This document shows, piece by piece, positions 26,159 to 64,000 of a DNA stretch of 64,000 nt; the stretch's first letter is position 1; the number at the start of each line of letters is the position of its first letter. Origin of the DNA: Branchiostoma floridae (lineage: Eukaryota > Chordata > Leptocardii > Amphioxiformes > Branchiostomatidae). The translations under genes were made by a program, and so were the position numbers. Location: assembly GCF_000003815.2 (NCBI RefSeq), contig NC_049981.1:7990581-8054580 (forward strand), in the 5' to 3' direction. Below the pieces are notes generated by a model, which saw only the letters and a list, made by a program, of their open reading frames with translations, ran no database searches and was not told where the DNA came from.

Positions 26159-26947
26159 ATGGGTACCCGTGTCTACATTGGTCGCCTTCCATACTCAGCA
26201 CGTGAGAAAGACGTGGAAAGGTTCTTCCGTGGGTACGGCCGAATCCGGGAGATCAACTTGAAGAATGGGTTTGGCTTTGTGGAATTTGATGATTATCGGG
26301 ATGCAGATGATGCGGTGTATGAGCTGAATGGCAAGGAAGTTCTCGGTGAGCGTGTCGTCATCGAGCACGCGAGAGGTCCCACAAGGCGTGATTATGGGTA
26401 CGGAGGCTATTACGGCGGTGGACACGGTCGCAGTCGGTCTGGCCGAGACAAGTATGGTCCACCGATCCGCACGGATTATCGTGTCGTCGTAGAGAACCTT
26501 TCCAGTCGCGTCAGCTGGCAGGATCTGAAGGATTTCATGCGCCAGGCAGGGGAGGTCACATACGGAGATGCCCACAAGCACAGGAAGAATGAGGGAGTTG
26601 TAGAGTTCCGCACAAGAGATGATATGAAGAAGGCCCTCCACACACTGGATGGTGCAGAGATAAATGGTAGGAAGATCAAGCTGAGGGAGGATAGGCGATA
26701 CTCGCGTAGCCGGTCCCGCAGTCACTCCAGGCGACGCAGTAGGTCTCGTTCTGGCTCCCGAAGTCGCTCCAGGTCCCGCAGCCGCAGCAAGTCTCTGTCC
26801 AGATCACGCTCCAAATCCCGCTCACGGTCCAAGTCCAAATCCCGCTCCAAATCCACGTCAAGGTCACCTTCTGCAGATAACAAAGAGAAAGAAGAGCAGC
26901 AGGACCAAGAGCAAGAAAATGACAAGGAGGCAGACCAGGAAGACTGA
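26159..26947 (+). CDS. SR splicing factor of the SRSF4/5/6 group
   Basis: A 262-residue protein in one exon. RRM1 spans about residues 4-74 with RNP2 (VYIGRL) and RNP1 (NGFGFVEF). A glycine-rich hinge ([13 protein letters not shown]) follows, then a pseudo-RRM at about 105-180 with the diagnostic [15 protein letters not shown]. An RS domain follows from about 185, with long runs of RS/SR. An acidic end ([19 protein letters not shown]) closes it. The SWQDLKD signature marks two-RRM SR proteins; the rest fits SRSF4/5/6 (human SRSF5 272, SRSF6 344 residues). These bind exonic enhancers in the nucleus. The ATG at 26159 lies 8 nt after an excellent acceptor (cctcttctgtttccag), so a 5'UTR intron is likely. 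Unlike vertebrate genes, the coding part has no introns. Confidence 0.95.
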
Positions 26948-37600: not shown

Positions 37601-40600
37601 ATGCCGCTGTAACTGGTGTTGCCTGTGTACTGTACCCCGTGGTAAGCCACTGCAGAAGCTCTCGCCCTGTCTGTAGTTGGAACACCATCACAGGTGCGCC
37701 ACAGCTGGTCAACCTGAGTCCTGCTTCCTTCCAGGATGCTAAAGCCAATTAGAAAGGTCAGTTAATTACCTGTTTGTGGACAAAGTTGACCAATATCAAC
37801 CTATACAATGGCTTTGATGTGTTAAAAACACCAAAACCTACTACATTATGACACTGAGTAACAAATGCATTACCTAGGAAACAAAAAAAGACTAAATTCT
37901 ATGACAAGTTTAACACGTGCACACCTGGTTTTTAGTTGAACCATTAAAAAAAGGTGGCTTTTTGACTACACACCTGTATCAGCACAGCAAAGGTTATACT
38001 ACCTATCATGATAAGGTCTGTGTGCCTACATAATTTTTTCGATGATTGTACATTTGTAACGTTATATCACAACAACCTGGTAGAACATCTGACCTGATAG
38101 CTTGGGCTCTGGTCAAAGCATCAAATGTTCCATTCCTGATCATGTAGAAGTAAACATCACAGTTGGCATAGTCCAGAGTGCTTCCATCTTTCTTGGCATC
38201 TACCCTCTCAATCAGTACATAGTTCCCAGACACATCCTGGAAAGTTCTGCAACAACAAGCACTGGTCAGTGCAGATACTAAACATTACAGTTTACAGGAA
38301 ACCTGTTCTTGTGCTTCCTTTATTCACACAGACACATACACATAAACAAATCTGTCCTGGTGCTGAATACCGTCCACTAACAGGTGAACACACCTGCCCT
38401 GGTGCTGAACAACATCCACACACAGTTAAACACATCTGTACTTGGTGCTGAACATTATTCACTATCAGCTAAACATACCTGTCCTCGATGCTGAACACTA
38501 TTCACTAACAGTTAAACACACCTGTCCTCGGTGCTGAACACTATTTACTAACAGCTAAACACACCTGTCATCGGTGCTGAACATTATTCACTATCAGCTA
38601 AACACACCTGTCCTCGATAGTGAACACTATTCACTAACAGCTAAACACACCTGTCCTCGATGGTGAACACTATTCACTAACAGCTAAACACACCTGTCCT
38701 CGGTGCTGAACACTATTCACTAACAGCTAAACACACCTGTCCAGGTGCTGAACACTATTCACTAACAGCTAAACACACCTGTCCAGGTGCTGAACACTAT
38801 TCACTAACAGCTAAACACACCTGTCCTCTGTGCTGAACACTATTCACTAACAGTTAAACTCACATGTCCTCGGTGCTGAACACTATTCACTGACAGCTAA
38901 ACACACATGTCCAGGTGCTCAACACACAGGTAAACACACCTGTCCCTAGTGATAAACACCATCCATACACACAGGTAAACATACCTGTCCCTGGTGTTTA
39001 AAGCCATCAACACACAGGTAAACACACCTGTTCTCAGTGCTCAACAGTATTCACTAACAGCTAAACACACCTGTCCTTGGTGCTGAACACTATTCACTAG
39101 CAGCTAAACACACCTGTCCTTGGTGATGAACACTATTCACTAACAGCTAAACACACCTGTCCAAGTGCACAACATAAAGGTAAACACACCTGTCCCAGTC
39201 CCTAGTGATAAACACCATCCACACACACACACAGGTAAATATACCTGTCCCTGGTGTTAAATGCCATCAACACGGGTAAACACACCTGTCCTTGGTGCTG
39301 AACACTATTCACTAACAGCTAAACACACCTGTCCAGGTGCTCAACATACAGGCAAACACACCTGTCCCTAGTGATAAACACCATCCACACACACACACAG
39401 GTAAATATACCTGTCCCTGGTGTTAAATGCCATCAACACGGGTAGTTACACCTGTCCTTGGTGCTGAACACTATTCACTAACAGCTAAACACACATGTCC
39501 AGGTGCTCAACATACAGGCAAACACACCTGTCCCTAGTGATAAACACCATCCACACACACAGGTATTCATATCTGTCCCTGGTGTTTAATGCCATCAACA
39601 CATAGGTAAACACACCTGTTCTCAGTGCTGAACAGTATTCACTAACAGCTAAACACACCTGTCCTTGGTGCTGAACACAATTCACTAACAGCTAAACACA
39701 CCTGTCCAAGGACACAACATACAGGTAAACACACCTGTCCCAGGTGATAAACACCATCCACACACACACAGGTAAACATACCTGTCCCTGGTGTTTAACG
39801 CCATCAACACACAGGTAAACACACCTGTCATTGGCAACATACACCATCCACACACGCCGTACCTTTTGATGTTGTCTTTGCAGCTGTAGCACACGTCAGG
39901 TGGCAGGTTGCCGACCATAACAGCCCTATTTGCATCATTAACCACAACAACCTGCACAAAATGTCATCAACACTAAGCATCAACATTTAGAATGAAAATG
40001 GTATCATGACGTCACAGTTTCTCTCAATAAATACATAACTGTTAATACCAAATTACCATGTAGTTAAACTGTTCAAGTTGGGGGAGCACAGCATATAGAA
40101 TATAAACAAGAAAAATAATATCATCTATCAGTGATAGTTGAAAAACATGTGTTTCATACATCTGTATATTACTGCAGTAAACCTTTGACCTGTACTGATC
40201 AGGTCATATGACATAGGTTTTGGTTCATTTCAACTTGAGAAGGATAAACAACTGGCCTGACTTAAGACAGAAGGCCCAAAGACGAGTCTAAGTGAAGAAA
40301 TTCATTGCTGGCTTATGTTCCAGCAGGAGCATAGGGCCTAAATCTGTGTAAAGCAAGGGAGCCAAAAGGTGCAACTATTTAGGAGGAAAGAGTTGCAGAG
40401 TGGTACCATTTCCTAGTATGCAGCAGAAACGTGGAGAACAAACAAGAAGATTGAGCAGCGCATTAGGGGTTTTGAAAGCAGATGTCTCAGGAGAATACTG
40501 AGGATCCGATGGGAACAAAGAGTCTCCAATAAAGAAGTTGCAGAGCACACAGGTATTCCCAACATCGTGGAGGAAATAAGACACAGACGTTGGAAATGGG

Positions 40601-43600
40601 ACATATCCTGCGTATGCAAAAGAGCATTTAACATATGTCGCCCTCAAATGGACTCCCCAAGGGAAACGGAACAGAGGCAGGCCTCTAGGGACCTGGAGAA
40701 GGACTATAGAAGGGGAGATGAAGGCAGCACGGAAGACCTGACACGAAGTTAGATGGATGGCCCAAGATAGGAAGGACTGGAGGAAGTTCATCAGTGCCTT
40801 ATGCTCCACCAAAGGGAGTGAAGAGGATTAAGAGGATTAGGTAGGGTAACCATTTCATAGTAAATATTGTTAGCTGCACCATACTGACCACGACACTGGT
40901 GTCCCCTGTGAAGGTTTGTCCTCCACTCTGAGCTGGTGCTTCATCTGCCTCAACATTGAAGAAGAACTTCTTCCCCACTTGGCCTGGCCTAAATGGTACC
41001 AGGTTCCTCACAACACCTAACAAACAACAAGGAAACAGAAGAACAAATTGTACTTATAGGGAAATGTGAGGAGGAGAATAAATTAAAGTACTCAATTTGT
41101 AAATACAATGAAAATATTCAATGGTTTGTTTATGAAGGTTAGACATCCACTGGCAGGTTAACAAAATTTAAAGACAATTCAATTTCTACAACTGGATCTT
41201 AGATTTGATACAAGTACACATTGGTTTGTTCTGCCAGTTCATTCTAGTGATGCTGAAGAAGATTGATGGATGTCACGTAAAACTTCTGTAAGTAATCTTT
41301 GAATCTTAAGCAGCTGTAAAGATTGAATTGTCTTGAAAAAATTTTATGGCATCCTCAAGCAATTCTAAATTCTCTTTTCTTTGCTATGGGTTCATCTTTG
41401 AATTTCACCTGACAATTTAGGGTTCCATCTTAGTTTTAAGCTGCCAGAATTTTGCATGTAGACAGTTCAACAACATGTAGTAGAAATCCTTGATATTTCA
41501 AGAGTTAGACTGTACTAAATAACCAGAGTTAATTCCTTTTTCAGTGATGCCTCAGGGGCGGAAGCAGTTTTCTTTTCTTCTCTCTACATAAACGAGGGTC
41601 TGCATGTTCTTTTCCGTAAGGCGGGGGCAGCCTATTTTTATTTCTCGTAAATCGTAGGGAAAACCATCTTATCTACGTAATTCGTGGCAAGGCGACCAAA
41701 TTTAGCGTAGTTGCCTTCCTTGATTTAGCGTAATACATAGGGGGTTCTTCTGAATTCAGCGTAAGTCGATGTCGGGACCCCCCATTCAGACCCTCATAAA
41801 CCACAAGCACACCATTGGAGTGTGACTGAATGGACGTACCAGTGGTAGAGTCTACAGTGAAGTTTCTGGCAACAGGGGACAGCTGTCCGTTAGGCTGGGT
41901 CTTGATTTTGTACACAAAGTTGTTATAAGGACTGGAGTCTCGGTCAGAAGCCTGGAAATAAATGTAGTGTTGATTACATCATTGGTCAATACATGGCATA
42001 ATTACTTCAATGAAGTGGACGTATTGTCAAGTATTTATGGAAGTATTGACACTATGGAGGTAGCCATGAGACTTTTAATTGTAGAAGACTAGTTGGATAG
42101 TTGTAAAAGAGGCCAAGAGTGAAGTTGCAAACTTGATAAGTAATAATATCACACTTGTGTCACTTTTACTACAAAAGTGTACTTCTTGAAAACAGGAATG
42201 AATGCTTTGTTGCCTGTGATACCATGTTTTGTCGCTTCATTTCTAGTTACGTTTACGTTAAATTTATTTATCTTTTTTTCGCCCTTCCTCAGTATTTTGG
42301 CAGTCCATACTATCTATATACTAAATAGATAATGTTAACATGAACTTAACCATGCAAAGATTATGCAAATGTGCAAGAAATTTGAATAATTTTTCTTTGA
42401 AAATCTCCAATTATTTCATGGATGTATGAGGTCTATGAACTCTTGTTTTTACTGTATTTTGTTTGATGAGATAGCATGACATGCTATCCCTTTGCTATTA
42501 ACCACTATACATGTACACGTAAGAACAGATTTCGGATTTGTACTGTAGTTATGTAGTCCTTGCTTACCCTAACTTGGACGAGAGAGGAGAAAAGATCGGC
42601 ATCCTCTGACACACCTGTTTAAAGGAGATATGCAATATATCAATCATTGGTGTTAATCATCTTTATTGAAGAATCTTGTTAGCAACAAAACACACACACA
42701 AACACACATTATACAAATAATAACCGAACAACCCTACCTGTGACATATGTAGGAGTATCAAACATTGGAGCATTGTCATTCACATCCTCAACATTAACCT
42801 GAACCAGCGCCGTATTGTCTGAAATTGGAAGGAATATCAGATACAGGATTAGAAAACACACTTATTTGTTGAAGTGTGTATAATGCTACAAGAGCCCTCC
42901 CTCCCATGGCTTCCTTAACGGCAAGAAAACATACGGGAAGATTTACTAACTCCAACATGCAATCTTTGTGAGCTCAAAATCACAACGTTTTATGTTGAAC
43001 ACATTACTGAATTTGTAAAGGACCAGAAAGAATTTGCATACCAGAGCTAAACTTTTACTAACAGATGGGTTCTGAAAAGTGACGGTTTAAAATGCTGACG
43101 GATTAATATGAACAGCCATTGCTATTTTGCCGCCAGCAGCTGCCAAGCGTTATGCTGTGCCAGGTTTGCTTTCAGGTCAGTTTCAACAGGACCTGAACTT
43201 GCCTGACAACCACCCGGCTGTGTCATGTACTCCTCACATGGGAGATACATGCATGTATGTGAGTCTGAGACTCTACTTGGTTATTTCACAATCAAAAATG
43301 ATGAAGCAGCAACCAGCAATTTAGGGATGTCATTGGTCCAATTTAGGACCTGTAGGGATATCAGACCACGCCAGTACCAACTCCTCTCAATGACATCCCT
43401 AAGCACTGCACTGTTAGCCTACTCTAACCTGCAAGCTGGCGTTTTTTCCTACGGCCTGTGGTACCAGAGGTTCCTGAGGGTGAAACTCGGAGGGTCAGGA
43501 GGTACTGTCGGACGTTCTCGTAGTCCAGTGCCCGTGTGGTCTCCAGTATCAGGGGATCGTTCAGGTTGGCAGGGCGGACAACCCTGAAGTAGCCTGTGGT

Positions 43601-46600
43601 GTCTTCTGAGGCTGCGCAGTGCAAAATAAGTAAAGTTTATAGCAAATTCTTGCCCGTGGGCTAATTGCAGGTAACATTAGAGATTCAAATAGTGTGAAAA
43701 CACTATTACAAGTGTCTACTCTAGTCTATAACTAGTAAGAGCTAACTCTAGATCCTGGGTTATTGGGTTCACCTCCTTTTTCAAAGACAGTGGAAGACGA
43801 AAGATCCCACCTTTTCTACTATGTGTGGGTTTTGTGATGTTAGAAGGAGAATTGTTTTCTTTTTGTGAATATAAAGAAGTTTGGGTGAAATTTGGTGGCC
43901 TCTTCAATAGCTCTTTTCCTTCGTGATCATAGAAAGAGCAGTTTGACATCAAATGTGTAAAGAAGAGTGTTAGAAGATCTCACACATCCATGAAATATTT
44001 ATATGTCTTGCTTCATTGTTTACACACAGTTTATTAATTATGCAAATAAGGTTTTGATTGACACCATGTATCCATTGATCACTACCTGCTATTCTATTAT
44101 GAATGTGAGCTAACATCATCTTCCCACTCACTTCCTGCTACTGAAATTGTATTCAAATAACTACACACAAGAACATCACATCTAAACACATTGAAAACAA
44201 ATATAAAGCCTTTGGACACAGAGGTAACAATGGTAACATTACTTGGCATAATCTAGCTTACATGTACCTTCCTTTAAATCATCTTGTAGACATAATTTCA
44301 GGTGAGATTAACTGACTCTTCAAGAGCATATGTAACATTAAATAGTAGTACAATACAATAGTCTCACAACATTCACTACAAATAATAACTAGAATCATGA
44401 AGTCTTAAAAGTTTATAATAGAATGTGAATATTGTTTCTGCAATAAATGGTCTTAAAATGTTAACATCCATTGGCATAATACCGGTCGGTTTACTGCAAT
44501 TTCTCAAGCAATGCTAATTTGGCAAATGATCAACGCATCATTTTCTCCAGTTACATGTTGCTGTTACAGCTTACCTTTGCCACTTCTTCTGTGTAAATTA
44601 TTTTGTCTCTCTGGTCCTGCTAAAAACATAATATCGTAATTGGAACACACCGCGAAATTACACGGAGAACGGGCGCGTGGTTGGAAGGGGGTGCACTATA
44701 CCGGTCAAACGAAACACGGCACAATTAACTGCCGCTATGTACCTTTATTCATCCTCTGTTGTTCCTTTCTTTCCTGTTAGTAGTTGCACAAAACAAAAAT
44801 CTGCATGAGCATACAAAAAGTCATGAGAAAATGGGCGTATACTGACAAGAATTTTCATTTAATTTTGGTCCGTCACAACCGCTATGACGTAAAACTTTAC
44901 TGCTGGCCGTAGCATTAAAAATGGCGGGAAAATGGCGGCGTGCGTTCAATTTGACCCATTCAGCCGTAGATCCGGGCGATAATGCAACGGTTCCTCACAC
45001 TTTTACATGAGTTGTAGGTCACCAAAAGAAATTCAAGATTGCTGTTGAATCATGCTCGTCTTGTGCCGTGAGCACATGTGATTATTATCTACAAATCTGG
45101 CGATGAACGTGACAGTGTGTTTGTCCCACGACGAGCTCGCCTGCCCCGAAAATGACCTGAAAACTTTTGGCCTTGTTGTCTTCGAATGCAATGTTATCGA
45201 TGCTTTGTAAATTATGTATTGGACACCTAGATGTCTGAAGTGTGCATACCTCAGAAATAACTATTGTTGCATGTGTAGATCTCTTTAAGTTCCACTATTT
45301 TTAATCGACCGGTATAAGGCTTATGACCGGTATTATGCCAATGCATGTTACAGATAACATAATTTGTTCCTAATACATTATGCAAAATTTCTGTCAGATT
45401 TCCTACACAGCTTACTTGCAGGGGTTGTTTGTGAAGACACAATTGTGTAGTCCACATTGCTCCGACTCGGTGAGATATCTATGCCCCTTGTGAAAGCTAC
45501 TGTGGTCCCAGCCTGAGCATTCTCCGCCACTGTTCCTCTGTAAAGCAAGTTTGCATCACAGTTGGCATAGCTCTTTTTCTCACTAGTGAGTGGCACTGTA
45601 AAGACAGCAGTTGTATAAAAGCACAGCAAAAGGCCCTTAACACTAAACTGGGCAATTATCTTAAGAACTTCCCTGCACAGAAGAGCACAGAAAAGATGTC
45701 AAAATAGTGGTCTGATCTGGTTGTTAAAGCGACTAATAACGGCAAACTGATTTTAGCCTCTAGCCACTGATGAAGCTGTTCATAGCGAAAATAGTTTGGC
45801 CGACAGGCTGAATAAAAGTTCAAAACTTGAACTATGCGGCTCCAGATGTATTTCTGAGGGACGACTGCACTGTGCAAGATGTCGGTAGCTTGAGAGATGA
45901 ATCTACTCTAACATATAAAGACAAACTGGTCGAATACAGAGTCTCAGCACTGTCATTTGCCTTACACTCGAAAGATTAATTAAAGCAGCGTGAATATTTC
46001 GTGATTTACAGGAGTAACGTTACTGAAGAAGCTTACGTGAATTGACTCTGTGTGAAGGATACAGCGTTAGCTGAGCCCCGCTCTGTCACTTCTATTGTGA
46101 CTGTCCCTGTAGAGCTCATCACTGGTGGACCCTCATCACTGACTCGAACCAACAACTACAAACACAACACCTCTCATTCAATGTTTGACATCTCATTCAG
46201 TTTAACACACAATATATCATCGCAATTGAAAAATATCAGAAAGAAATAATAATGAATAGACAGACACTGACGAAAATCTGTACAAGATTTAAAATTTTCT
46301 AAATTAGAGCAACGTGGATCATATATGAGTTAAGATTACTTGCACATGTGAAAAAAAACTGCGCCATAACTTTCGCCGTGTATTCAGGAACTTTGAATGA
46401 TACAGAATGATACAGTTCCAGTTCCCTGACAATTTGCCTAGTGTGTTATTTTTTGTACACCCCTCCTTCGCCATAAAAAGTCATGTGCAGGTCAAGCAAA
46501 AAACATGTAAATGCCTGTCTGCCTGCTCATCTGTCGAACCAACAGGAGAACCATATTCCTAATAATGAGGCAGTTGACAAGATATGCAATACAAAATAAC

Positions 46601-48771
46601 AACCAAAAGCTCAACTCTTACCGGGAATTGATTGATGTTAGCATAGTCACTAGCCAAGTTTCTCCTTGTCACAACATCACCTGTCATCGGGTCCACAGCA
46701 AACATGGCCGCTGCTGCGTCCGAGTTCTGTACAGCTGGGTCTGTGTACGTGCTGTAGGTGAACTGGGGTTGCTACAGGAGAACATCATACAAACGTGTGT
46801 CATGCCTTCAGTATTCAAACAGTATTCTTTAGGCCCTTCTTGCATAATTGGCACCTGTCAAATGTTCCTTTCACCTGCCCTGAATTACAGACTATCTCCA
46901 CTGAAAAACACCTGTTTCTGTCTCTTCTGCCTGATCCAAGGTACTAGACAGAAAATTTAGGTTCAGCTACGGTCCAGGTCCAGAGGGTTAGTTTGTATCT
47001 GTGAATACTTGTGAATAGCTTTAGCTGAGGACATTGATGGGCAATACTCAAAACAATGGTCCATTCTGCTACAAATGATTCTGTTTGGTGGTGTATCCAA
47101 CATTCACTGGTGTTTCAAAATCCTATCTTCACGTAAACAACACGAACTGCCTCTGTTTTAGACCAAGTTTGACTGGCGAATATAAGATAAGAAAGGCAAT
47201 CTTCTCTGCTTCACTCTAGTTATTTTATTGTACCTTTAAGCCCTCAAACACGCAAACGCCTGCTCGTATAATCTGTTTATTTTCTACTCAGTCCAAAAGC
47301 CGGTACACTGATTTTTTTCAGGTCCGTTTTTTCTGGACTGGTCCAACAAGAAAAACCCATCCCTACAAGACATTAGTTCTTAAGCTGCCATTGGGCTGTT
47401 TTCGACAAACTATAAGTTATAAGATTTTTCAAATTAGTTTCATTCTCTGGAATATAATAAAGGATTTGATACTGTACAGTTTGGCTGATTTTTGCTGCAG
47501 CAAACTAAGTTAATGACGCATTTCGTATTCCATCAAACTTTCTATCTGGGAATAGGTAAAGACAGTTTCAGTTGTTAAATATGAACATAATAGTTGGCAC
47601 ACCATGCCATAGCTACAAATAGTAATGATAACAGCAACCAAACTAATAAAGTCACATTTGACTACGTAATTTTGTTGTATGTATATTATATAATAATTGA
47701 ATATATATCAGTATTGGGTAAACTAGTCAAAATTTATTGATTATATATAATTTTACACTTATCATGCATGCCATCCATTAATCATCAGCATTGCCGCATT
47801 CCACTGATGCAACCCATTACAGTACCTGTCTTAGATGCACAATGAGCTTTGATGGTGCCGAGCTTGCAAATACACATTCTTGAAAACCATGCAATGCTTT
47901 TGTCAGCCTTAAGGTGGTATCTCATTGCACTTGTGGCACCGGTGTGGCACTGCGGGGTTTATTCACTGCGGCACTGTTGTGTTATTTTTGCCAATTTTCT
48001 ATAATGGAGAAATTGCGTAAAATGTAAAAGTGACTTAGAAAACAACAAAATACACAAAACCTACGAAAATTTATCCTAAGACTTTAGTTTATCACTCAAA
48101 AATTTGTTTTGAGTAATCTTTTGAACCCCGCAGTGCCACACTGGTGCCACAAGTGTAGTGAGACACCACCTCAAGTTTGACATGTGTTGTGTGGTGTTTC
48201 TGTGGACTCATCCATGTACCAAGCAGGGAGTTAGGGGAACTCCCAACTTCCATCATGCCTTCGTGCAAGCATGCACAAATCATCCATTCAAGATAACTGT
48301 GTGCCAGAAAATGTCTTCAAACAGACATCAAACACGATGAACAGATTTCTTCCTTCCTTCGTTGTGCATCGCCATTGTTTAACCCTGTGTTATCATGACT
48401 AATGTGTGGTCTGTGACTTAAACAGAAGCACAAGACCAGCCAGATGCCATGCAAAAATATCATGCATGACATTCCTGTAGCAAGTCATAAGCGTGGAACT
48501 TGCCACTTTTGTACTTACATCCCAGAACTGATTTCGAAGTGAGGGAAAAACAACACATGTGTCATGTTAGTGTTGAACACTTGCTACTGTTTTTGTTATT
48601 GTATATCATTCTACACTATTGTCACATGTAGATTACCATGTGCTACGTTCTACCAAATACTCACATTTATGGCATCTGCTGAATTGTTACGCTTTCAGAT
48701 GTAAAAAAAATATTAGTAACCATAGGGGTGAGAAGTTATGTGAGGTATATCAAATAACACTGAATAAAAGA

Positions 48772-48838
<67 letters not shown>

Positions 48839-51800
48839 TCCTGTAAGTCAATTTCTTGTACATTTATCAAAATTTCATAATCCTGAAGGTTCTTGTAAGT
48901 TCTACCGAAATTCCACGGAAATTTATTGGCATTGACACAAATCAAAAACAGAAGAAATTTAAATTTGAATGAGTCTGTCAAGGCAGTCATTTTACCACCA
49001 GGCACATTGATTATGTCATCTTGGTTTCAAACCCATTGCCATGTCAGTCAAACCACTGTAAGTTATGTAACGGTGTCATTGTTTTCTTGAAAAAAGAGAG
49101 AAGAAGCAAATTAACTGTACGTCTTCTCTGTTAAGTATTAGAATACCTGCACAGTATGGTGTATGTACATCAATACCCACACTTACATGCATGTTATTAT
49201 TGTATGTGTATTACTAAGTTGTGTTAATACTGACAGACCTGTTTTCCTAATGCTGTCTAACATAAATCTCTCAGATTCAGAGATGAACAAACAAAATTAT
49301 CATTACCCCGGCCTGTACAATTATGAAGTAAGTAAGAAAGAGAATGGTGGATATCTTTTGAAAGCTTAAATCTCAATTGAGCTGCCATCACTTAGTCATA
49401 ACTATCAGTTTGACTCTGTTTTTTTACAAAGTATCATACACTTATTATCATGCATAGTGCAGGGCTAAAACTTTGTACTAAAACGTTGTCTCAACATAGT
49501 AAATTGATGCATCAAATTTCCAACTCACCAGTTTTTTTAGAATTGAAAAACACAGTAATTTGAGTTTTAATGAAGACTTTTTTGTTAAAAATTTGAGGCA
49601 ATTACTCATAATGTAAGTGATGGAATAAAATTATGGCTCTATACTTATGAAGAACACAGATTAACTTTTATAATTAGGAGTCAGGTAAGTAGATAAACTA
49701 CAAAGTCCTTTATAAGGCAATTACTGCCACTTACATGCATTACCATAGGAGGAATAAATATTCTGTTCACAACTGTTCAGAACCAGTCAAAAAATCAGTT
49801 CTGACATAATCTTGCACTACATGGACATCATAACAGAACAGTCATTATGTAGGATTTATCAAAATCTATCCGTCTGTTTGTGGAATCAGTGAGACTGAAT
49901 AAAAACGTACCGGATTATCTGCATCGGTGGCTTGCAGCTGGCCTATAGACATGCCAATAGCAGCGTCTTCTCGAACTGTGAAACTGTACGGAGTCCCATC
50001 AAAGGTTGGGGGGGAGTCGTTCTTGTCCTGGATGCAAATGAAGTATAAATCCAGATAACGTTGAATTACGTAAATGCACAAAAATACATAACAAATGCAC
50101 CTTGTATCTAAAAGAACTTTGAATAACTTGAGGTATATCTTTTTAGTGATGTGATAAACCATCTTTAGTGGCCTTATATATGGCATAATCGTTTACCATT
50201 CAATCATCACAAGGAAACTGGAAAAAGAAGAAGTATGGTCTATCACTGAAGTAAACTTACAATTTTGCCTCATGCCTTACACAACAATGTAAGTATTGTT
50301 TGCTGAGACTGGGCTCAAAATACTTTTTTCTGCATACCTGCACTGGTGCAGGTAACATTGAAAATTACCTGCACCAGACATATCTTACCTGCACCACTCT
50401 GAACTTAAGAATTGTGAATCATACTAAAATTGTTCGGGGAACCATGCATTTTTTCTTTCATACTTTAACCATGCAGCTAATAACAATCCACACACACCTG
50501 CATCATAGGAGAATGTAATTTACTATAAAACTCAGTACATGGACCAGTGCAGGTTAGGTGCAGGTAGACACCAGAAATACCTGCACTAACCTGCATATGC
50601 AGGTGGTATTTTGAGCCCTGTGAGAGAATGAGCCACAACTGGCGAGGAAAATCACACACAAACATGAAGATTGTGCCCACCTGGATGTTGACAGTGACTG
50701 TTGCTGTTGATGTCCTGGTGTTGAGGTGTGGGGCGGCCTGGGCCATGTCCTCTGCCAGGATGACCACAATGTAGCGTGCTGTGGTAACACCTTCATAATC
50801 TAGTGGCCCTTGGGAAAGACATGTCCATTTATTTAAAGCTACAGTCTAAAAATATATGTGCAAATCTGGTTAAACTGGATTTTTTTNNNNNNNNNNNNNN
50901 NNNNNNNNNNNNNNNNNNNNNNNNNNNNNNNNNNNNNNNNNNNNNNNNNNNNNNNNNNNNNNNNNNNNNNNNNNNNNNNNNNNNNNNNNNNNNNNNNNNN
51001 NNNNNNNNNNNNNNNNNNAGACAGGACACCTGTGTTCTCATTCACACCTGTACATGGTACCCACTGGTGGTAGACAGGACACCTGTGTTCTCATTCACAC
51101 CTGTACATAGTACCCACCTGTGGTAGACAGGACACCTGTGTTCTCATTCACACCTGTACATGGTACCCACCTGTGGTAGACAGGACACCTGTGTTTTCAT
51201 TCACACCTGTACATGGTACCCACCTGTGGTAGACAGGACACCTGTGTTCTCATTCACACCTGTACATGGTATACCCACCTGTGGTAGACAGGACACCTGT
51301 GTTCTCATTCACACCTGTACATGGTATACCCACCTGTGGTAGACAGGACACCTGTGTTCTCATTCACACCTGTACATGGTACCCACCTGTGGTAGACAGG
51401 ACACCTGTGTTCTCATTCACACCTGTACATGGTACCCACCTGTGGTAGACAGGACACCTGTGTTTTCATTCACACCTGTACATGGTACCCACCTGTGGTA
51501 GACAGGACACCTGTGTTCTCATTCACAGTAAACAGAGTCTCCCCAGTAGTAGGAGTGACACTGTCCCTGGTGTACTGCACACTTGCCCCAACATCAGGAT
51601 CTGCAGCCTAATAAATAATAAAAACTATTGTGGTCCAAAAGTTTGTCTCAAACTCTTAATCTGCTGCTTGATATCAATGAATACTAGTTTCATCAGGTGG
51701 AAAGTCGTCAACAGTATTACACTGTGATTTATTTTAACGAGATTGTTCAAAGCAAGGTCACGAGACCACTTCAAGGTAATGAACTAAGAAGTTGGAAACT

Positions 51801-54800
51801 GTGCACGGAGATAGCGGTGGACATTTGTTTTGAAGGCTGATAAGTTGTAGACAGGAGGGAAACAAGAGTCGTCAAGTGATTTCCATAATTTTGCTGTCCG
51901 AGGAAAGAAACTGTTGCTGTAGAAGGACTTGGAAACCGGCGATTGAAAAGTAAAACGATGTGAGTTTGAAGAGAACCTTGTGTTGCGCTGAAAGGCTCTG
52001 AACGGAGAGACAAGCACTTTAAAAGTTCAGTACATGCAGGTGGTAGATCCAGAGTGGTTTGTACCTCAAGGTCAATGATGTTCATGGCCGGTTCATTCTC
52101 ATCCACATTCACAATGTACTCAGCATTGGGGGGGCTCAGGGGACGTCTGGCAAACTCATTGTCCTGGAACACTGGAGGCTTGTTGTTGATATCACTCAAT
52201 CTGTTGTTTGTCAATAACAAAAAAAAAGTTACATTTAAGCCCATGTTGAAATAATTCCAGCATCTAGCAGCTTTTGATTTTGTAGATGCTTGAGAAAACC
52301 AAAATTTAAGAACAGTATGTTTCAGCACTAAGGACAGATAGCATATTCTGTATCAACCAGTGGTATTAAATAGCAGTATACACACACACACACACTATCT
52401 GTTTATTTTCATACCTATATATATATATCTCATGCATATATTTGCAATGATTTTTCTTGTTTCTGATTTTAACATATTGGAGTGCAGAAAGATTCCAATA
52501 GGTATACCAAAGAACTGGGTGAGCAGATCTATCTTGTCAATAATGTTTCTTCCATTCACTCTACTGCCAACATGGCCCAGTCTCAAAATACATAATTCTA
52601 TGAATGTTTCTTATTCTGTTTTACATCACATGCATACATAATTTTGAACACAAAGTCATCTTCAAACACACCTTAGGGCATTCCCTCTCTGACACTATCT
52701 AAAACTCTGTGCCTCACATGCAATGTCCTACTCACTGAATGGTAAGGTCCAGTAGTGCTATCCGTCCCCCTGAGTCTTGTGCCTGTACTGTGATGGGGAT
52801 CTCCCTCTGGTCATCTCGGTCCAGCGGTGCTCTCCTGGTCAGCTGACCTGTTGTGGGGTTGATGGCAAACCTGTCCAGTAAAGTGACGAGAAGTACATCA
52901 GACTAGCATCTTAGCATGAAAGTTCATCTGTGCTGGTGGAATACATTACACAAAAATGCTAACACTTTACTTCCAACACTGAATTAAACTATAGGGTCAC
53001 TTACCCCTCAAAATTTCATAAGTATCAGAGAGTCTACCAGCCCGCCGGCCCACCCACAACAGAGACGGGGGTTCAACATAGATTTTCTGATACTTATGAC
53101 CCCCTCCTGCAAAAGTGGTGTGTTCCTGATGTCACTGCTGGAGATAGAAGGGTCATTCTGTGAACAAGGTCGACGGAGATTGACCAAAAAAGTCCCTATA
53201 ATTTAATTCTGTGTTGGAAGTAAAGTAGACTAGCATCTACATCACTGATAATTTGGGGTATCTAGGTATCTAAAAATTCTTAAGAGGCAACTGGGATTGA
53301 ACTTCTGAATGCCTGCACCGTTATTGAGGAGTAAAACTGAGGTCTTAGGAATGTTTCATGAGGTTATTGCAAATGCATTTAAGTTTGCGGGGATTTAATT
53401 TTGCGGTAGTGGGGAAAGATGAGAGGATGAACGTAGAAGTCATCATCGATCACGATGGACAACCAAGAGCGGGGAAAGAGACTTTTTGCTGTGGTTTCAA
53501 GTTCGCAGTAGCACCATGCACTGTAGTCTTTTTCTGCCATGGAAAAATTTTTGCGGTGGTTTTAAGTTACCGCGAATATTAAACCACCACGAAAGTTTCT
53601 GCATTTACAGTATTTGAATTGGTTCAATATCAATAAATGCCAGATTGTTGGACAGGGAAGCAGGCAGAGGAGTGAACAGGAGCCAGAATAGGGCAGATAC
53701 CAGGCTGCATATAAAATTTACTGCAAACAACTAAAATTTACAAGCACAAAACAACTGTAGATGGACATTTGTATGACTTGTGCTAAATTTTGTTTAATAA
53801 TAGAGAATCATGTCTCTTCTCTGTTCAGAAAGATGTGGCACGATTTAAACAATTGTGAAAAAACAATACTGCAGCAATCCTCTTGGGTTCAAAAGTCTAA
53901 ATATCAAAAATCATGAGCGGCAAATTTCTTAGTTATGTGTAGCATTCTACTGTCTAGAAATAGGAATCGACTTGACTAGAACAACTAAACAAAAACGTAT
54001 TGGTTGAAGAATTCTCAAATTCTAATAAAAAGCAGAACTGACTTGTCTCCTCCCCTCAGCAGACTGTAGGTGATGCCAGCAGAACCAGACCCATCTGCAT
54101 CTGTAGCCTGTTTAACGGCAGGAAATTCATCAAGCATTTGTACACAATTATGTCAATAACACACATATAATGATACAAAATATGACTTGCAGCCTGTGAT
54201 GCCACTCAAAAACCTTCCAGCTTTAGCCAAGCTATTTGATGTGTTCTTCAACCTCTTCATAGACCGGCTGACTTTGCGTTTTTGTGTGTGAGATCTCTGT
54301 AATTGACTATCTGTTCCCCACTTACTGGATTAAGTATAAGTCTGCGGTTACAGTGTTACTCTTTTTGTCAAAATTGCCCAAATGTGAGGGGTGTGTGAAT
54401 AATTTTGCATGCAACTGTGTATATCCCAGGACTGACAGTAACTCTAGTTTATTAAAAATGTGACAGATTTAAAACTCTACAAACAGGCCAGAAATAGAAC
54501 CCTTTACTGCTGATCCACCTTAGTTTCCGGATGTGTTTCACTAGTAACTTAGTTTAAGAGTGAAAGAGAAAAACATCGCCGAGCCATGACTCAACTAAGG
54601 ATCCATCAGGACCCATTGGAAATTGAAGCTTGTAGATACAACCGAACCCCTCCTAATGATAAACTAGTATATTTTGCGATAAGAACCACATGCATGTAGA
54701 AAACGAAATACACTGAGTGTTCACTGTACATGACGATCTGCAAAATACAATTGTTAATGCTACACATGTAGATCAGAAATATGCACACATAACTAACGAA

Positions 54801-57800
54801 GGCACTATGTTCAAAAATCTTATGTCATCATCTGTCAGACCATGATATACTGGAAAATCTCTGTAAGCTCGTCTATACGTTTTAAGAAGAGAGAAGATGC
54901 ATGTAAATTATAGTATAACTTTTGTTTACTACCTTTTGTATCAAGCTGACTGCATTTAGCCCCAATGGGGCATGAATATGCAATAAACTTCATTCAATTT
55001 GTCATTGTTAAGAGCTGACCTGAACAGATTGTACTGGATCTCCGTTCTGTCCTCCCTCTGCTATCTCAATGGGCTGGTTAGGATTGGCTGGAGCAGTGAA
55101 GGTTGGGGAATTGTCATTCCCATTGGTCAGGTCCACCTGTACTGTAGCAGTGGCTGTGGTCGGAGGAGACCCATTCTGTGTTCGATGTAAAAAGATTATA
55201 TCATATCATATTCAACTCTTTTAACCATCTATAATGTCAACATAACCAGAAAACCTTCTTGTTGTTCTGAGAAATTATTTCATATTCATGCCATTGCAAA
55301 CTGAGGGCAATTTTGGGGATAAAAGTGCAAGTATCATTAAAAATTTAGTTGTCTTGTTACAATAAAAATGTCTCAGATCCTTGTCAATAGTTCGTACTGT
55401 CACAACCTGCTTAAACAAGCTTAAACATCAAAATTGTAGGACAGCCTATGGCAAATGTGACCATGACAGTATTTCAAATTAAGCCAATTGTCGCCATACT
55501 TGAATTCTGAAAGTTTCAATTTGTAGTTTGCACAATCTTTCTGATCTTCACTGATTTTGCCATGTGTAAACTGCAGTTATTATCATGGGAACTGAAAAAC
55601 AAGTGGTTGCTGGAAAGGCAGATGGTACATAAGCAAAGGGTTTAAAACATAAAATTGGACGGGACCATTTTATGTGACTGGATGTGGTCTATATCTCTGT
55701 ACAAAGAAGCCTCTACTCACATCAGTAGCCAAGACTTGAAGAGTGTAAGATGGAGTCCTTTCATAGTCCAGTTGATTCCGAACAGTAATCTCTCCACTAC
55801 ACAGAAAATATAATACATTAATACAAGATAATATTTATTGACACGACAAAAGTACAGCGACTTTTGTAAGGTCGACATGTATAACAACTACTTACAGTAC
55901 AACTAAACACATATATATGGATATCTATAGGTATGAATACATCAACATAAAGGGTCTAGCATGTCATTTACACTATATTACATAAACAATCGTGGATATA
56001 CTACAGCATTCACAGGGTTAAACATTTCCCTGAAAAGTTGGTTAAGGACAGCGAATTTTTGTGTGCAACTGAATCTTTTAAAACTTCAGTCTGTTAAGTT
56101 ACCCTGAGTCACAACTTCAATTTCTTGAACACTAAAAATTACTGCTCTCAGACTAGTAACTTGCTTGCCTTGTACAGTCAACCAAAATGAGCTGCATTCA
56201 TGGCAAAAAGTTTTGGGTTCATATCAAAAGGACAAGGCTTGCTTTGTCATTATTCTTACCTACAAATGTAACTTACAAACTACATGTACTGCCACATGAG
56301 AAAAAAATTCATGAATTTTAAGTTATTCTAAGACATGTACCAATGTGGTATACATTGTGTATACACTTATATTATAATTTTACAGGTGTTCAAGACAATC
56401 TTGAAAGGGACCCTATAACAATGTCTTTTATGTGGCCGCATTATGGCATGAGACTCGATATTAGGTAGAATACAAATTGAAGACAAGTTACGTGTTCTGA
56501 TTAATCTGAAAGTCGTTGTCTGTGTTCCCTGTCCCCAGACTGTAGCTCAGGGCGTTACCATCTGGGTCACTCGCCTGAAACAAGTTCACAGCTCAGATTA
56601 GCCACAGAAAGACTGCTCGGGTTTATTGGTAGAAAAGATTTAAGGCACGATACAAAACTGCAGAACCACGGAAGAAGAGAGAACATTTGTTTGAGTTTTG
56701 TAATAGCTGTCGTGTGGCACACTCTATCGAATGCCTTGCTGAAATCTGTCATATGAAACTTTAGATCTAGTCGTTACTAATTTGAATGCATTATGACACA
56801 TTATCATATAGCCAGGGGACGTGGGCCAATCAGATTTAATTTAATATGTGAAGTAAACCAGTAAAGATATAACCGTTACATATATTAAGAGACTCAATGC
56901 TACAGACAGATTTGATTATATATTCTGATGTAACAACTCCCACAATGCTAAAATTAAGGTAAATATATAAAAGACTGCTTTGACATGAGAGAAAAATGCA
57001 GAAACTCATAATAAGCCCCACTCGATTGTTGTACAATATCAAAGATTTAGGCTAGCTCTTATTGTTCTAGAAATTAGAATGTCAAATTTCATTCTATATT
57101 CATAATCTGCATAATGTACTATGTTTAATACTTGTTTTAGTAAATAGGATGATAAGTTTGTTTCTTCTTTTTTTTTGCCATACATTGTACCGCGTACGAT
57201 CGTTGCGCAATGAAGTTCTTCTATAGGTATCATCTTGACTTACGGTAACGGCAGTGACAGGGCCATTGACAGGTGCCTCCTCCCCCAGCCTGGTGCTGTA
57301 CTGTTGTAGAGGGAAGGTGGGGCGCCTGTTCTGTGTGCCAGTCACTGTGATGTCCACATAGCCCTGACGTTCACTGCAAGCAGGGTAAAGTCACTCAGGT
57401 TAACAAATAAAGGCAAGTATCATTGAGTAGGCATCCTTCCATCTTTGCAGATGATGGTAGCACTCACTCCTTGAAGTTAGGGCGGTTGACAGCGTACTTT
57501 TAGAATATCTGCAATCAAGTTCTTTTACAGTACATTGAAGGAAGTCAACCCCAGTCATGAACTCGGACGAGGGGGGGGGGGGTACAGACTTTAAGTCAGC
57601 TTTGGGATTGTGTTCTCGCTGCAACAGCACCACCCATATTTGGCTACTATAGTAGCAAGTAGCAGAACTTCAGTTGGAAGCTCTGAGGCTTGAGGAAGAT
57701 GTTTGACAGGCATCAAAATGTATCAACTTGAAGCAAGTTTAACTAATTCTGTAAAAGAAAACTCCAATATCCTCTTCACGGGCCCAGGTAGCGTGGGTAC

Positions 57801-60800
57801 CTGTGGGTACCATAAAAGCAATAAGTTTGTCTTTCAGAATTGTGCATCATACAAGTTCCAAGGGATAAAGTTGATAGTTCATAAACTCACTTCAGCCCAT
57901 CAGAGCACACAATAACAACAGTGTAGACTGTCCCATCAGTAAGGCCTGCCCCTGAAGCCACTGTGATTTCTCCTGTGTTCTGGTTGATGTTGAAAAGGTT
58001 GTCGGCACCGTTGATGACTCGGTCAATGCTGTATGAGAAGGTGGAGCCTGTGTCTGTGTCCGAACACTGGGGTGATCCCTGGAACACATAGAAGACAGCA
58101 TCCCTTCATTTCATCCATCTCATCTTACTGGGTCATCCCAACCAATTGTATCTGGAAAGACCTCCAGGATGCGTACATTCCTCTAGAAAATAAACCTCGT
58201 CCTCGAATTTCATTAGCGAACATTCGTCTTGGAAAAATGTTGCTCCCTTAAAAAGTGTAAATTCCTCAGGAATCGGCAATTCCTCCCTGCAAGGGGAGAC
58301 TGACATTTCTCCTGTAATCCCATCATCACCTCAAAAACTATTAAGTGCAAGGAAATGGAATTTATGATCAACATGTATACAAGTTTTTTGGGGCATTTAT
58401 CATTATGGCCAGATTCAGTTACTGTACTACCGTAAATACATTTAAGTTCGTGGAGATTTAAATGCGCGGTAGCGGGAAAATTGACTTTTCGTGGTGGCCT
58501 CATGGTTTTAATTTCTTGGTAGCACCATGCATTGTTATTACAGTAGTCTCTTACTGCCATGGAAAATGTTCGCGGTGGTTTTAAGTTTGCAGTGAAGCAT
58601 CCACCGTGAAAACTGCCAACATTAAACCACCGCAAAAGTTTCTGCATTTACAGTATATCAGTTCAGTATATAATTTTGCATAATGCCCTCTGGGACTAAT
58701 ACAGGAGCCAGACAATACGAATGCTGCCTTACCGGAGTTAAAGCTACAGAAGTGCCATCTGCCACAGGAATGCTCACAGCTCCTGTGAGAGGGTTAGCGG
58801 AAGAGCCTGCAGTACCACCGTTAAACACCGGGGTGTTGTCATTGACATCTTGTATATTGATGGTAACAACAGAAGGGTTGCTGGACTGAGGGTTGGTTCC
58901 ACTTGTTTCACGTGCTGTGATCTACAATGAATGAAAGAAAAATATTGTGTGTTATATACAACTGTTACCGTTCTCATATTATGGTCTCATTGATGAGTTT
59001 CTTCTTCCCATAGACTTCTATGTTATAATTCGTGGTTTAAATGGGCGCATTCATAATGAAGCTACGTGAAATTTCAGCAGATTTTTCATTCTATGTCGAG
59101 CACATTTACCCTATATCGTGGGAAAAAATTGCCAATGTAAACTATACGTAGGAACTTTTTTTATAGCAATTACAAACTACGATTAGTCAATCCCCACAAA
59201 AGGCACTTTTTCGCTGCTATTGTACAACCGCACCACTCAAAACCCACGACTGTGTACCTCCGACCTAGCGCGCGGCTGCAAAACTTTACCTGCTAAGTTC
59301 TTCAGTTACAAATAAGCTTTCACCAATCTAACTTTTGAGATCAGTTCCGCTGGCTAAAAGGGAATTTCCCACCGCTAAAAACATGCGTCCGTGCAGCCGT
59401 TCATTTTTTGGCTCGGATCTCTTTTAGGGTACCCACTCGCGGAGTAATACATCAATGAGACCTTATCATGAAGTTACCAAAATGCTACAGGCTGATAGTA
59501 AAATGTTTGTTCAGTGAATAATACAACAGATGCATTTGATGCTAGTCATAGGCTATAGGAAAATACTTAATAAAGAATAATATGAATATATCTGCAACAC
59601 TCAAAAATATCACAGTGTTAAAATCTGACTGCCTCATCTTTAGAATGTAATAATTTAATAGTTCTACATTTGTCTACTATTTTGCTACGGGTCATTGCAC
59701 ATGAAAAAAGAAAGAAGGAGGGAGATAAGGAAGGGAGAAAGAAAGAAGGAAAGTAAGAAGGGATTCAGAGAATGGAGGAAAGGAGTGAAAGGACAAACAA
59801 AAGGAGAAAGAAGGAAGGAAATAAAAAAAGGAGGCCTAACAGAAGCACTGTATCTCCTGATGTCCAGAGCAATATATGACAAAGAGTATGGGGCTAATAA
59901 GATAGCAACAATATAAACCCTGGGAAAAGACAATGCACTGAAGTTGTCTCACCATAATATTTACCATAAGAATCATAAATCCCACTAAAAATTTGAATCA
60001 TGTCCAATAAAACAATGATTATCATGTAAACCAAACCACAGGAACTACTTGATACAGTTCCAGGGGAAAGTGTATTGTAGTGTGCTTGACTAACCGTAAG
60101 CGTGTACTGGTTAGTGGTCTCAGCGTCCAAGGCTCCGTTCGCCAGCACATACCACTCCCGAGTGCTGCTTCCCTGGGTCACGCTGAACTTGTCATCATTC
60201 CCTGCCGGCTGGGTGGTCACATCTATGGTCACTGCAGGACTGCCATCCTGCGGACAGCCAATCATGGCACATTATCATATAGTCAGACAAAATCGGCCAA
60301 TCAAGGGCTCCCATTGGAAAATTTGATTATGAGGCTATGATGACTGTCCAACCAACACAGTTGTTTGTACCATTACATCATCAGGCTGCTATAACCACCC
60401 CATAAACCACCTTGTCTGCTTTCAAATTGCTCATTCTGTGGTTAATTCAATGGTTATACTAAAAGTTATAGAAACCCAGCAGGCATTATGTCACCAGGGT
60501 GGGACATAATTGTTTGGTACAAAGAAAAATGTTTGAATCCTATGGACAGGTATACCAATACTGAAAGTGAATGCTGAAAGCTCGGCATTCATACACTGTA
60601 ATGAGAGAACCAGTCAATCAAACTGATGAGGCCTAAGTCTTGGATGAGGCTTAAGCTTTTTCATAGATCTTCACACACAATCATTACCATAGTTACTGTT
60701 AACAGAGAAAATGCTTTTTTACCTGGTGCTTGGTCTATATGGACATGCAGAATGAACAGAACAAAACAAAATGAAATAAATGTGTTAATAACAGTGCTTG

Positions 60801-61734: not shown

Positions 61735-62411
61735 CTGCAATTAGAGAAAAAAAATTGAATAAAAGGATATGAATATGCAACGATGTGAATGAGTGTCAAA
61801 AGCTCTTTATTCCATTTCTTAAAATTAATTTGCATTATTTGATGTCAGATAAGGCCATGTTGATTTGAATATATGGATGACATCTGCAGGCGCATCAATT
61901 TTCGGCCGTTTCCAAAAATGAAAAAAAGTTTTCAACCATACTGTAAATCCTATCCTTATATATTATATTAAGCTAAATGTATCAGCTATCAAGTTACCTT
62001 TTGTTTCTTAGTTGGCCACTTCTTATGATGTTGGAAAAGAAAAGGACTTTGCGGTTTCACATACTAAAAGTAGCAAAGCATTGAAATACACTCTAACTGA
62101 ACTTTATATCTGAAAAGGTCGCCATAATAGTAAGCTAATTCTTTTTGGGTACATGCTTGTCCCTTTTTCTGTTTGAACCAGAGATTTAGAGTTTATTTCC
62201 AGTAAGTTACTAAGTGGTCTAGTCTTGATGTCATCCTTCATATACAAGACAATGGAAGGCACCACCAGTAAATCAGTACTAAGGACAGGTATAGCCCTGT
62301 TGTGCACTAGCAGTACTTTAAAAGAAGAAAATGTTTGTTGGGATTTGATTTCACAGAAGGACAATATTGATTAGTATAGTGAAAAGTTTAAACTTTGTTC
62401 CAACACAAGGG

Positions 62412-63380
62412 AAGAAACTCACCATAAATTTTCGGCCGAACACTCCGACCTTCATCAGATGAATGATTCGCTGCTAATCCGGAAGTCGTCGGATGACGTC
62501 AGGTAGCAGCGAATCATAAATGGCGGGAAGGCGAAACCTGCCACCGTCACGGTTCAATGAGGGTTGATGTGCCCTGATGTAGATAGCCTCCTTGACGCCC
62601 CTCACGAACCAGTCCTGTTCGGAGTCCAAGATGCGAACTTGGTCCAGAGATACGGAGTGGCCCGGAGATTCGACGTGTATATGCTGAGACACTTCTGAAG
62701 ATGTTGAACTGCGACGTTTATGTTCCATGAAACGGGTTCTTAATGATCGTGCCGTTTCCCCGATGTAGGACTCGGTGCACGGACCTCTGAGGTTCTGTCC
62801 CGTACAACGAATATGGTAAACCACGCCGCACTTGTGTTCTTTGGGCGTCTTATCCTTAGGCGCCACCAAAAGCTGCCTAAGTGTCCTAGTCGGCCTAAAG
62901 CAGGTCTTAATGCCGAGTGAGTTGAAGGTTCTACGTAAGGCTTCAGACAAATTTTGAATATATGGCAACACTACTAGTCCCTTGTTCACGGTAGTGGGGC
63001 GGTTTTGATTGCCAGTCCTAGTGGTTTTAGGTGCTGTCGCTCTGGACACTGCCCACTCGGGGTAACCACACTTACGTAAAGCTTGAGTAATGTGTTCTTT
63101 CTCTCTTTTTCTATCTTCCGGGTTGGTGATGATAGAATCAGCCCTATGGAACAAGGTACTGATGACACCCAATTTGTGTTCTAATGGGTGACTAGAGTGG
63201 AAATTTAAATACTGGTCCGTATGTGTGGGTTTTCTATAAATTGTTATGTCCAACGAGCCGTCCCTCTTTTACCACAGTTAGTGTATCCAAGAAAGGTAAG
63301 GTTCCGTCTTGTTCTTCTTCAGTGGTGAACTTAATATCAGGATCTAAACTGTTCAAGTGCTGTTCAAGCTTTACGTAAGT
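62412..63380 (-). mobile_element. Penelope-like element copy, minus strand, 5'-truncated
   Basis: Minus-strand frame begins KLEQHLNSLDPDIKFTTEEE near 63377 and is broken by one frameshift near 63250. It continues LDITIYRKPTHTDQYLNFHS to a stop near 62474 (about 259 residues). It covers the end of the reverse transcriptase, then the linker and the GIY-YIG-type endonuclease (CGVVYHIRCTG, ESYIGETARSLRTRFMEH, DWFVRGVKEAIYIRAH), the domain order of Penelope-like elements. The 3' flank has a hammerhead-like core. Most of the reverse transcriptase is missing. It lies upstream of the first cadherin exon seen here, probably in an intron. Confidence 0.88.
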
Positions 63381-64000
63381 GTGGTTACCCCGAGTGGGCA
63401 GTGTCCAGAGCGACAGCACCTAAAACCACTAGGACTGGCAATCAAAACCGCCCCACTACCGTGAACAAGGGACTAGTAGTGTTGCCATATATTCAAAATT
63501 TGTCTGAAGCCTTACGTAGAACCTTCAACTCACACGGCATTAAGACCTGCTTTAGGCCGACTAGGACACTTAGGCAGCTTTTGGTGGCGCCTACGGATAA
63601 GACGCCCAAAGAACACAAGTGCGGCGTGGTTTACCATATTCGTTGTACGGGACAGAACCTCAGAGGTCCGTGCACCGAGTCCTACATCGGGGAAACGGCA
63701 CGATCATTAAGAACCCGTTTCATGGAACATAAACGTCGCAGTTCAACATCTTCAGAAGTGTCTCAGCATATACACGTCGAATCTCCGGGCCACTCCGTAT
63801 CTCTGGACCAAGTTCGCATCTTGGACTCCGAACAGGACTGGTTCGTGAGGGGCGTCAAGGAGGCTATCTACATCAGGGCACATCAACCCTCATTGAACCG
63901 TGACGGTGGCAGGTTTCGCCTTCCCGCCATTTATGATTCGCTGCTACCTGACGTCATCCGACGACTTCCGGATTAGCAGCGAATCATTCATCTGATGAAG
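63363..64000 (+). mobile_element. Second Penelope-like copy, plus strand, head to head
   Basis: Starts at caagctttacgtaag and runs off the window's right edge. It encodes CGYPEWAVSRATAPKTTRTG through SLLPDVIRRLPD. It differs from the minus copy by about two residues in 190 (NSHGIKT for NSLGIKT; APTDKT for APKDKT). It is open throughout its length but has no proper start, so it is a 5'-truncated fragment of linker plus GIY-YIG endonuclease. Confidence 0.88.

Follow-up and report, generated by a model that had tools for sequence, protein, structure and literature searches.

Tandem arrays of short units that span an exon boundary have been described in several amphioxus genes, among them Adh3 and the globins, and are referred to as "mirages" (PMC3087553; PMC3902484). 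Two haplotypes of the globin gene BflGb6 are reported to carry six and three units, respectively, and somatic instability has been cited for the Adh3 array (PMC3087553). RT-PCR, together with the Adh3 data, is described as suggesting that mirages do not interfere with regular splicing, and it has been proposed that new introns can originate from amphioxus arrays of this kind (PMC3087553). In the lancelet PGBD5 gene, repeats of 60 and 108 bp lie at splice sites, and cases in Adh and troponin C have been named in the same report (PMC3902484).

An array in the amphioxus protocadherin-15 (PCDH15) gene is a new example of this repeat type. It lies in a window of 64,000 nt from Branchiostoma floridae (contig NC_049981.1), to which all positions below refer unless a locus or contig is named; on the minus strand it begins at 51526, within the end of a coding exon, and runs head-to-tail into the following intron (Table 1). 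It is very probably an exon-boundary minisatellite, or mirage, that is removed with the intron and is largely neutral. The first-pass annotation had called an exon-derived array of donors unusual, which holds outside amphioxus but not within it, where mirages have been described (PMC3087553; PMC3902484). Among the literature matches listed, there was no sign of the PCDH15 array.

Table 1. Positions of the PCDH15 features discussed in the text, numbered from the first base of the window.
Feature	Position	Strand	Description	Basis
PCDH15 gene portion in the window	35934..64000	minus	5′ end outside the window	32 tblastn pieces of P0122
PCDH15 exon, 115 nt	51493..51607	minus	Starts in phase 0, one base over; array unit 1 holds its last 34 bases	
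True donor CAG/GTGGGT	51487..51495	minus	Exon ends at 51493, intron starts at 51492	U1 duplex, site score
Exon-boundary minisatellite	51019..51526	minus	Nine full units, then 27 bp of a tenth	TRF, unit splitting
Unit 9, weakened donor CCA/GTGGGT	51046..51098	minus		Unit split, U1 pairing
Assembly gap, 132 N	50887..51018	.	Conceals the 3′ end of the array, including the unit 10 donor	
Next PCDH15 exon	50681..50808	minus	GG CCA CTA GAT TAT..., GPLDYEG	Gene model, orthologues, tblastn
Second array, more degenerate	38343..39855	minus	In another PCDH15 intron; assigned to a dispersed minisatellite family	TRF, shuffles

The host gene is, to judge from its predicted orthologues, amphioxus PCDH15. In a protein search with a 1063-aa gene-model query (7996 candidates scored, best 120 listed), the best four of the 120 listed matches are amphioxus proteins with 77–87% identity over 98–100% of the query, after which the score drops from 1837 to 425 bits among those listed. 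These four are cluster representatives for 41 sequences, all of them predicted proteins: a protocadherin-15-like protein from B. floridae x B. japonicum (P0122; 87% to the 1063-aa query, representing 23 sequences), a protein named PCDH15 by its source from B. lanceolatum (P0123; 84%, 10 sequences), one from a B. floridae x B. belcheri hybrid (P0124; 80%, 7 sequences) and one from B. belcheri (P0125; 77%, 1 sequence). Over the 210-aa core encoded by five joined exons the respective identities are 98, 92, 87 and 88%. The core bears out the annotation of the array-bearing exon as a cadherin exon (PF00028 Cadherin, E 5.8e-25); when it is compared with PDB sequences, CELSR1 (176.6 bits) ranks above PCDH15 (102.4 bits). 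In a tblastn search of P0122 against the window and 39.9 kb of the same chromosome, residues 878–916 match the array-bearing exon at 100%. Elsewhere in the gene, after the exon ending at 49911, P0122 adds ten residues (RNNSADAINQ; in the alignment nine columns more than the other three), perhaps from an alternative exon or donor.

TRF delimits a tandem repeat at 51019–51527 with a period of 53, 9.5 copies and a 97% match, and splitting on the minus strand gives unit lengths of 53, 53, 53, 55, 55, 53, 53, 53 and 53 bp followed by a tenth unit that is cut after 27 bp by the assembly gap. The first-pass annotation had described ten copies of 53 bp; the period and nine full units stand, but two of the units are 55 bp long and the tenth is visible over 27 bp. 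Each full unit consists of the final 34 coding bases of exon 51607–51493 with its donor and 19 (or 21) intronic bases, so that the exon-derived origin already proposed for the array is confirmed. Unit 1 straddles the end of this exon, which terminates ...GTGAATGAGAACACAGGTGTCCTGTCTACCACAG/gtgggt, and only its first 34 bases are coding. The 55-bp length of units 4 and 5 is due to a TA insertion 3′ of the donor. The donor CCACAG/GTGGGT is identical in units 1–8, the true donor included, whereas unit 9 reads CCACCA/GTGGGT, in which the GT is kept and the exonic −2 and −1 consensus bases are lost. What had been presented as one true donor followed by nine perfect copies, or ten equivalent sites, must be reduced to seven perfect copies and eight identical donors seen, with unit 9 altered and the unit 10 donor in the gap. 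There are three CAG/GTG sites per unit, at spacings of 18, 18 and 17 nt, and the two that fall in the exonic part of the unit (51019–51526) differ by an in-frame 18 nt.

Mean divergence among the nine units is 2.0% (TA indel excluded). Exonic bases diverge by 2.45% and intronic bases by 1.17%; the copies are no more alike in their exonic portion, as expected if they are free of protein constraint. In a genome search covering 513,431,437 bases in 431 contigs, in which the best candidates are scored and very common words are skipped, a 128-nt array query gave five matches among those listed, all inside the PCDH15 array, and for a 108-nt exon query this locus alone appeared among the matches listed. 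The array derives from the adjacent exon rather than from a dispersed repeat, and chance is not a serious explanation for it, given the 2.0% divergence of the units and the confinement of the 128-nt query matches to the array.

The copied donor is strong. With all nine positions of the true donor paired to U1, the duplex reaches −10.9 kcal/mol (−11.6 for the consensus), compared with −4.4 kcal/mol for the unit 9 donor and −6.7 for the two other CAG/GTG sites of the unit. Of 4213 GT sites on the minus strand, 17 score as high as the true donor and eight of these, the true one included, are in the array; here as elsewhere, the splice scores use mammalian weights that are not fitted to amphioxus. 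The product expected from each later donor was computed for donors 2 to 9, which would retain 53 to 428 nt and in all eight cases end at an identical stop (TTGGYHVQV, then TGA), seven codons past the last ACA codon and in agreement with the earlier estimate of about seven codons. The junction VLSTT-GPLD(Y/F)E is contiguous in 4/4 amphioxus cluster representatives (predicted proteins), and this uninterrupted VLSTTGPLDYE or VLSTTGPLDFE establishes 51493 as the last base of the exon and 50808 as the first of the next. An acceptor at 50838, 30 nt upstream of 50808, is favoured by the splice scores and was rejected, its ten extra residues being found in 0/4 orthologues. With the junction contiguous in all four and a stop predicted after donors 2–9, the conserved protein is obtainable, among the visible donors, from the first donor only, as the first-pass annotation had also concluded.

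The array would have arisen by tandem duplication of a segment holding the 34 last coding bases, the strong donor and the intron's first 19 bases, followed by spread of the duplicated unit through slippage or unequal exchange. The exon would be defined from its acceptor at 51607 to the first donor at 51492 and spliced to 50808, and the copies, which sit within the intron, would be removed together with it. Unit similarity could then be maintained by repeat turnover in a largely neutral array whose copy number would be expected to vary, and by analogy with the described arrays variation between individuals is likely. Most likely the PCDH15 array is tolerated, with nothing needed from its function. 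Nothing in the analysis shows that it tunes splicing or protein length, as had been suggested that it could.

How the first donor could prevail was considered at the level of RNA folding. In a fold of the whole segment, the mean unpaired probability is 0.28 for donor 1, 0.31–0.35 for donors 2–8 and 0.24 for donor 9, and in local folding donor 1 ranks third of nine. RNA structure hiding the later donors finds no support, donor 1 being the least open of donors 1–8 in a fold that covers the visible array; the idea that folding gives the first donor a reason to win is not supported by these models. When U1 occupies both of two duplicated donors in a test gene, it is often the intron-proximal copy that is used. 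This preference is the opposite of what the PCDH15 array requires and counts against its being a tolerated mirage. SRSF1 has been reported to favour the intron-proximal and hnRNP A1 the intron-distal donor (PMC5585400).

If the later donors were leaky, they might yield stop-containing mRNA subject to nonsense-mediated decay, such that array copy number would set the dose of PCDH15. The common sequence of donor 1 and donors 2–8 and the single stop shared by donors 2–9 would suit such a dial on expression, but published mirages, which reportedly leave regular splicing undisturbed (PMC3087553; PMC3902484), make it very unlikely. The array has also been linked to variation in protein length through a 36-nt piece of the unit, GVNENTGVLSTT, between the unit's tgtacag and its donor. 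This piece is indeed phase-neutral, as had been claimed, and leaves an open frame in 1, 2 or 3 copies, so that 36-nt mini-exons drawn from the units could insert GVNENTGVLSTT blocks in frame. Such use is nevertheless improbable in the extreme: the 12-residue insert is absent from 4/4 amphioxus cluster representatives (predicted proteins), the acceptor tgtacag falls below the listing score of 2, and the insertion point is a conserved cadherin stretch.

A different role for the intronic copies is conceivable, although unlikely, in which each CCTGTCTACCACAG/GTGGGT acts as both acceptor and donor and the array forms a ladder of such dual-specific sites. Splicing between any two units would remove whole units and restore ACAG/GTGGGT, a second splice would repair the use of a wrong donor, and growth of the array would neutralise itself. 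The same junction is restored by every unit-to-unit splice, as can be read from the sequence. With the mammalian weights the site scores 2.0 as an acceptor, above two of the five real acceptors checked; 275 of the strand's 3733 AG sites, the array's own included, score at least as well. For UBC, splicing through a dual-specific tandem array has been reported, as has an 8.4-fold enrichment of dual-specific introns in tandem-repeat genes (PMC10809524). However, the pyrimidine tract of the PCDH15 unit is only moderate, another AG (AACACAG) lies a little upstream of the site, adjacent units are 53 nt apart, which is short for an intron, and the unit length is no multiple of 3. Were the units to act as such dual sites, this would explain the tolerance of amphioxus for exon-boundary minisatellites, and mirages would represent halfway stages towards new introns.

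Wrongly stacked reads could have generated the copy number or even the whole array. The array runs into a gap, and the 27 bases of unit 10 and the 132 N that follow (50887–51045) together amount to 159, or 3 x 53, which is perhaps chance or may mean that the gap length follows the array. One BflGb6 haplotype array was apparently aberrantly assembled in the draft genome (PMC3087553), and copy numbers in assemblies are for this reason not to be trusted. The differences among the PCDH15 units are irregular, however, with GAA in units 2 and 7, TA in 4 and 5, T in 8 and the donor change in 9, unlike what the stacking of one read would give, and for the lancelet PGBD5 repeats re-sequencing is reported to argue strongly against assembly errors (PMC3902484). 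An assembly artefact is accordingly given hardly any weight beside a genuine, tolerated mirage.

Close copies of an exon end (a 30-nt window with ≤3 mismatches within 2 kb) were found at one of the 32 PCDH15 exon pieces, namely at the donor end at 51493, and at none of the others; the 32 pieces are those with >75% identity, and the model exons at 60247, 45672 and 42818 fall outside them. The second array (Table 1) starts ∼7 bases past the end of exon 39951–39863 and contains 28 donor-like sites that score at least as high as the true donor of that exon (4.28), against 46 such sites elsewhere on the strand with those of the first array left out (62,467 nt, the first array not subtracted from this length). 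As a mirage it was rejected, since the last 30 nt of the exon are not in its units (273/500 shuffles as good). A 15-nt match to the units does occur in the first 30 bases of the intron (0/500 shuffles as good), and on another contig, C1, a related array (L021) reaches a local score of 253, where 50 shuffles gave at most 29. By these comparisons the second array is judged to belong to a dispersed family and not to be exon-derived. The splice scores picked a donor inside it, at 39782, which was discarded because the orthologues support 39863. The predicted B. belcheri protein P0125 is without the peptide of exon 39951–39863 and has in its place a 34-residue stretch that matches translated second-array units (tblastn against the window, E 7.9e-12, run without composition correction or low-complexity filtering); most simply, a similar array in the B. 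belcheri gene would have misled its gene model.

Arrays with a period of 18–300 were also surveyed for donors over 303.9 kb, made up of 20 C1 stretches and the PCDH15 region. In 5/53 arrays the unit reached a donor score of 5 or more, where 1.7 would be expected from shuffled units, and since four of the five come from the PCDH15 region, two of them being pieces of the second array, the sample is small and biased and gives a weak sign that amphioxus minisatellites are rich in donors. At one locus, a 59-bp array of 10.8 copies (L007:3328–3967) has a donor-like site scoring 8.4 in its consensus unit; no coding exon was recognised there in the ORF list by eye. Another locus, which is without an ORF of at least 250 aa, carries a 117-bp array of 27.8 copies with a 99% match (L015:4766–8015). 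The window itself contains 234-bp tandem units at 4174–5249 (4.6 copies, 95% match). It also holds an SRSF6-like single open frame at 26159–26944 on the plus strand, possibly an intronless copy, which is 86% identical to an amphioxus SRSF6-like protein (478 bits, the next match 342), and two opposite ORFs with nearly the same translation, at 62474–63268 (minus) and 63335–63976 (plus), which may be parts of a retroelement.

As a control, a described mirage was sought in the same assembly through its globin genes. Of the nine globin loci listed, one has a TRF array that overlaps the globin match. This globin locus (L034, C18:7179355–7182567) contains at 954–1601 an array of ∼158-bp units made up of intron end, acceptor and exon start, and the exon start at 1501 recurs upstream at 1031 (3 mismatches in 40) and at 1185 and 1343 (0 mismatches). 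The array fits the published description of BflGb6, for which the locus is a candidate. At another of the loci a 17-bp array of 16.8 copies (L029:1084–1369) ends 131 bases before the globin exon match.

The choice among identical donors is a basic question of splice-site selection and is known mainly from built constructs. A natural gene with eight identical and almost perfect donors packed into 375 nt offers a clean test of donor choice, and an informative one, because the most distal of the eight must win if the conserved protein is to be made. If the first donor is used faithfully, exon definition or the order of synthesis must decide, and not local donor sequence. A mirage in PCDH15, a gene familiar from vertebrate hair cells, is a convenient test object. 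The array also enlarges the set of amphioxus repeats from which new introns have been proposed to originate (PMC3087553).

The closest described systems are the Adh3, BflGb6 and BflGb9 mirages, which are likewise boundary-spanning tandem units in cephalochordate genes, many of them with AG/GT. Each of these features recurs in the PCDH15 array: the units span the boundary of a coding gene (34 coding and 19 intronic bases), AG/GT is present in many but not all of them (8/9 full units, the ninth having GT only), and the genome is that of a cephalochordate, as reflected in the 98% identity of the core to the B. floridae x B. japonicum protein, in the amphioxus match of the SRSF6-like frame and in a globin array as described for B. 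floridae. In BflGb9, as in PCDH15, it is the 3′ exon boundary that is copied (PMC3087553). The PCDH15 array differs from the globin and Adh3 mirages in its gene, its 53-bp unit and its eight identical near-consensus donors, and is known here from DNA. The PGBD5 duplications and the troponin C mirage are also tandem repeats at splice sites (PMC3902484); the PGBD5 copies are called imperfect (PMC3902484), whereas the mean divergence in PCDH15 is 2.0%. Outside amphioxus, the human UBC array resembles that of PCDH15 in having AGGT at the same position of each tandem unit (PMC10809524), a feature found in 8/9 full PCDH15 units, unit 9 being without AG before GT. The UBC units, however, are coding monomers that have been shown to be spliced (PMC10809524), whereas the extra PCDH15 units are intronic and 53 bp long. 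The ratchet points of recursive splicing, as described, similarly juxtapose acceptor-like and donor sequences (CAG/GT), but the acceptor half of the PCDH15 unit is merely moderate and its likeness to stepwise intron removal is one of sequence.
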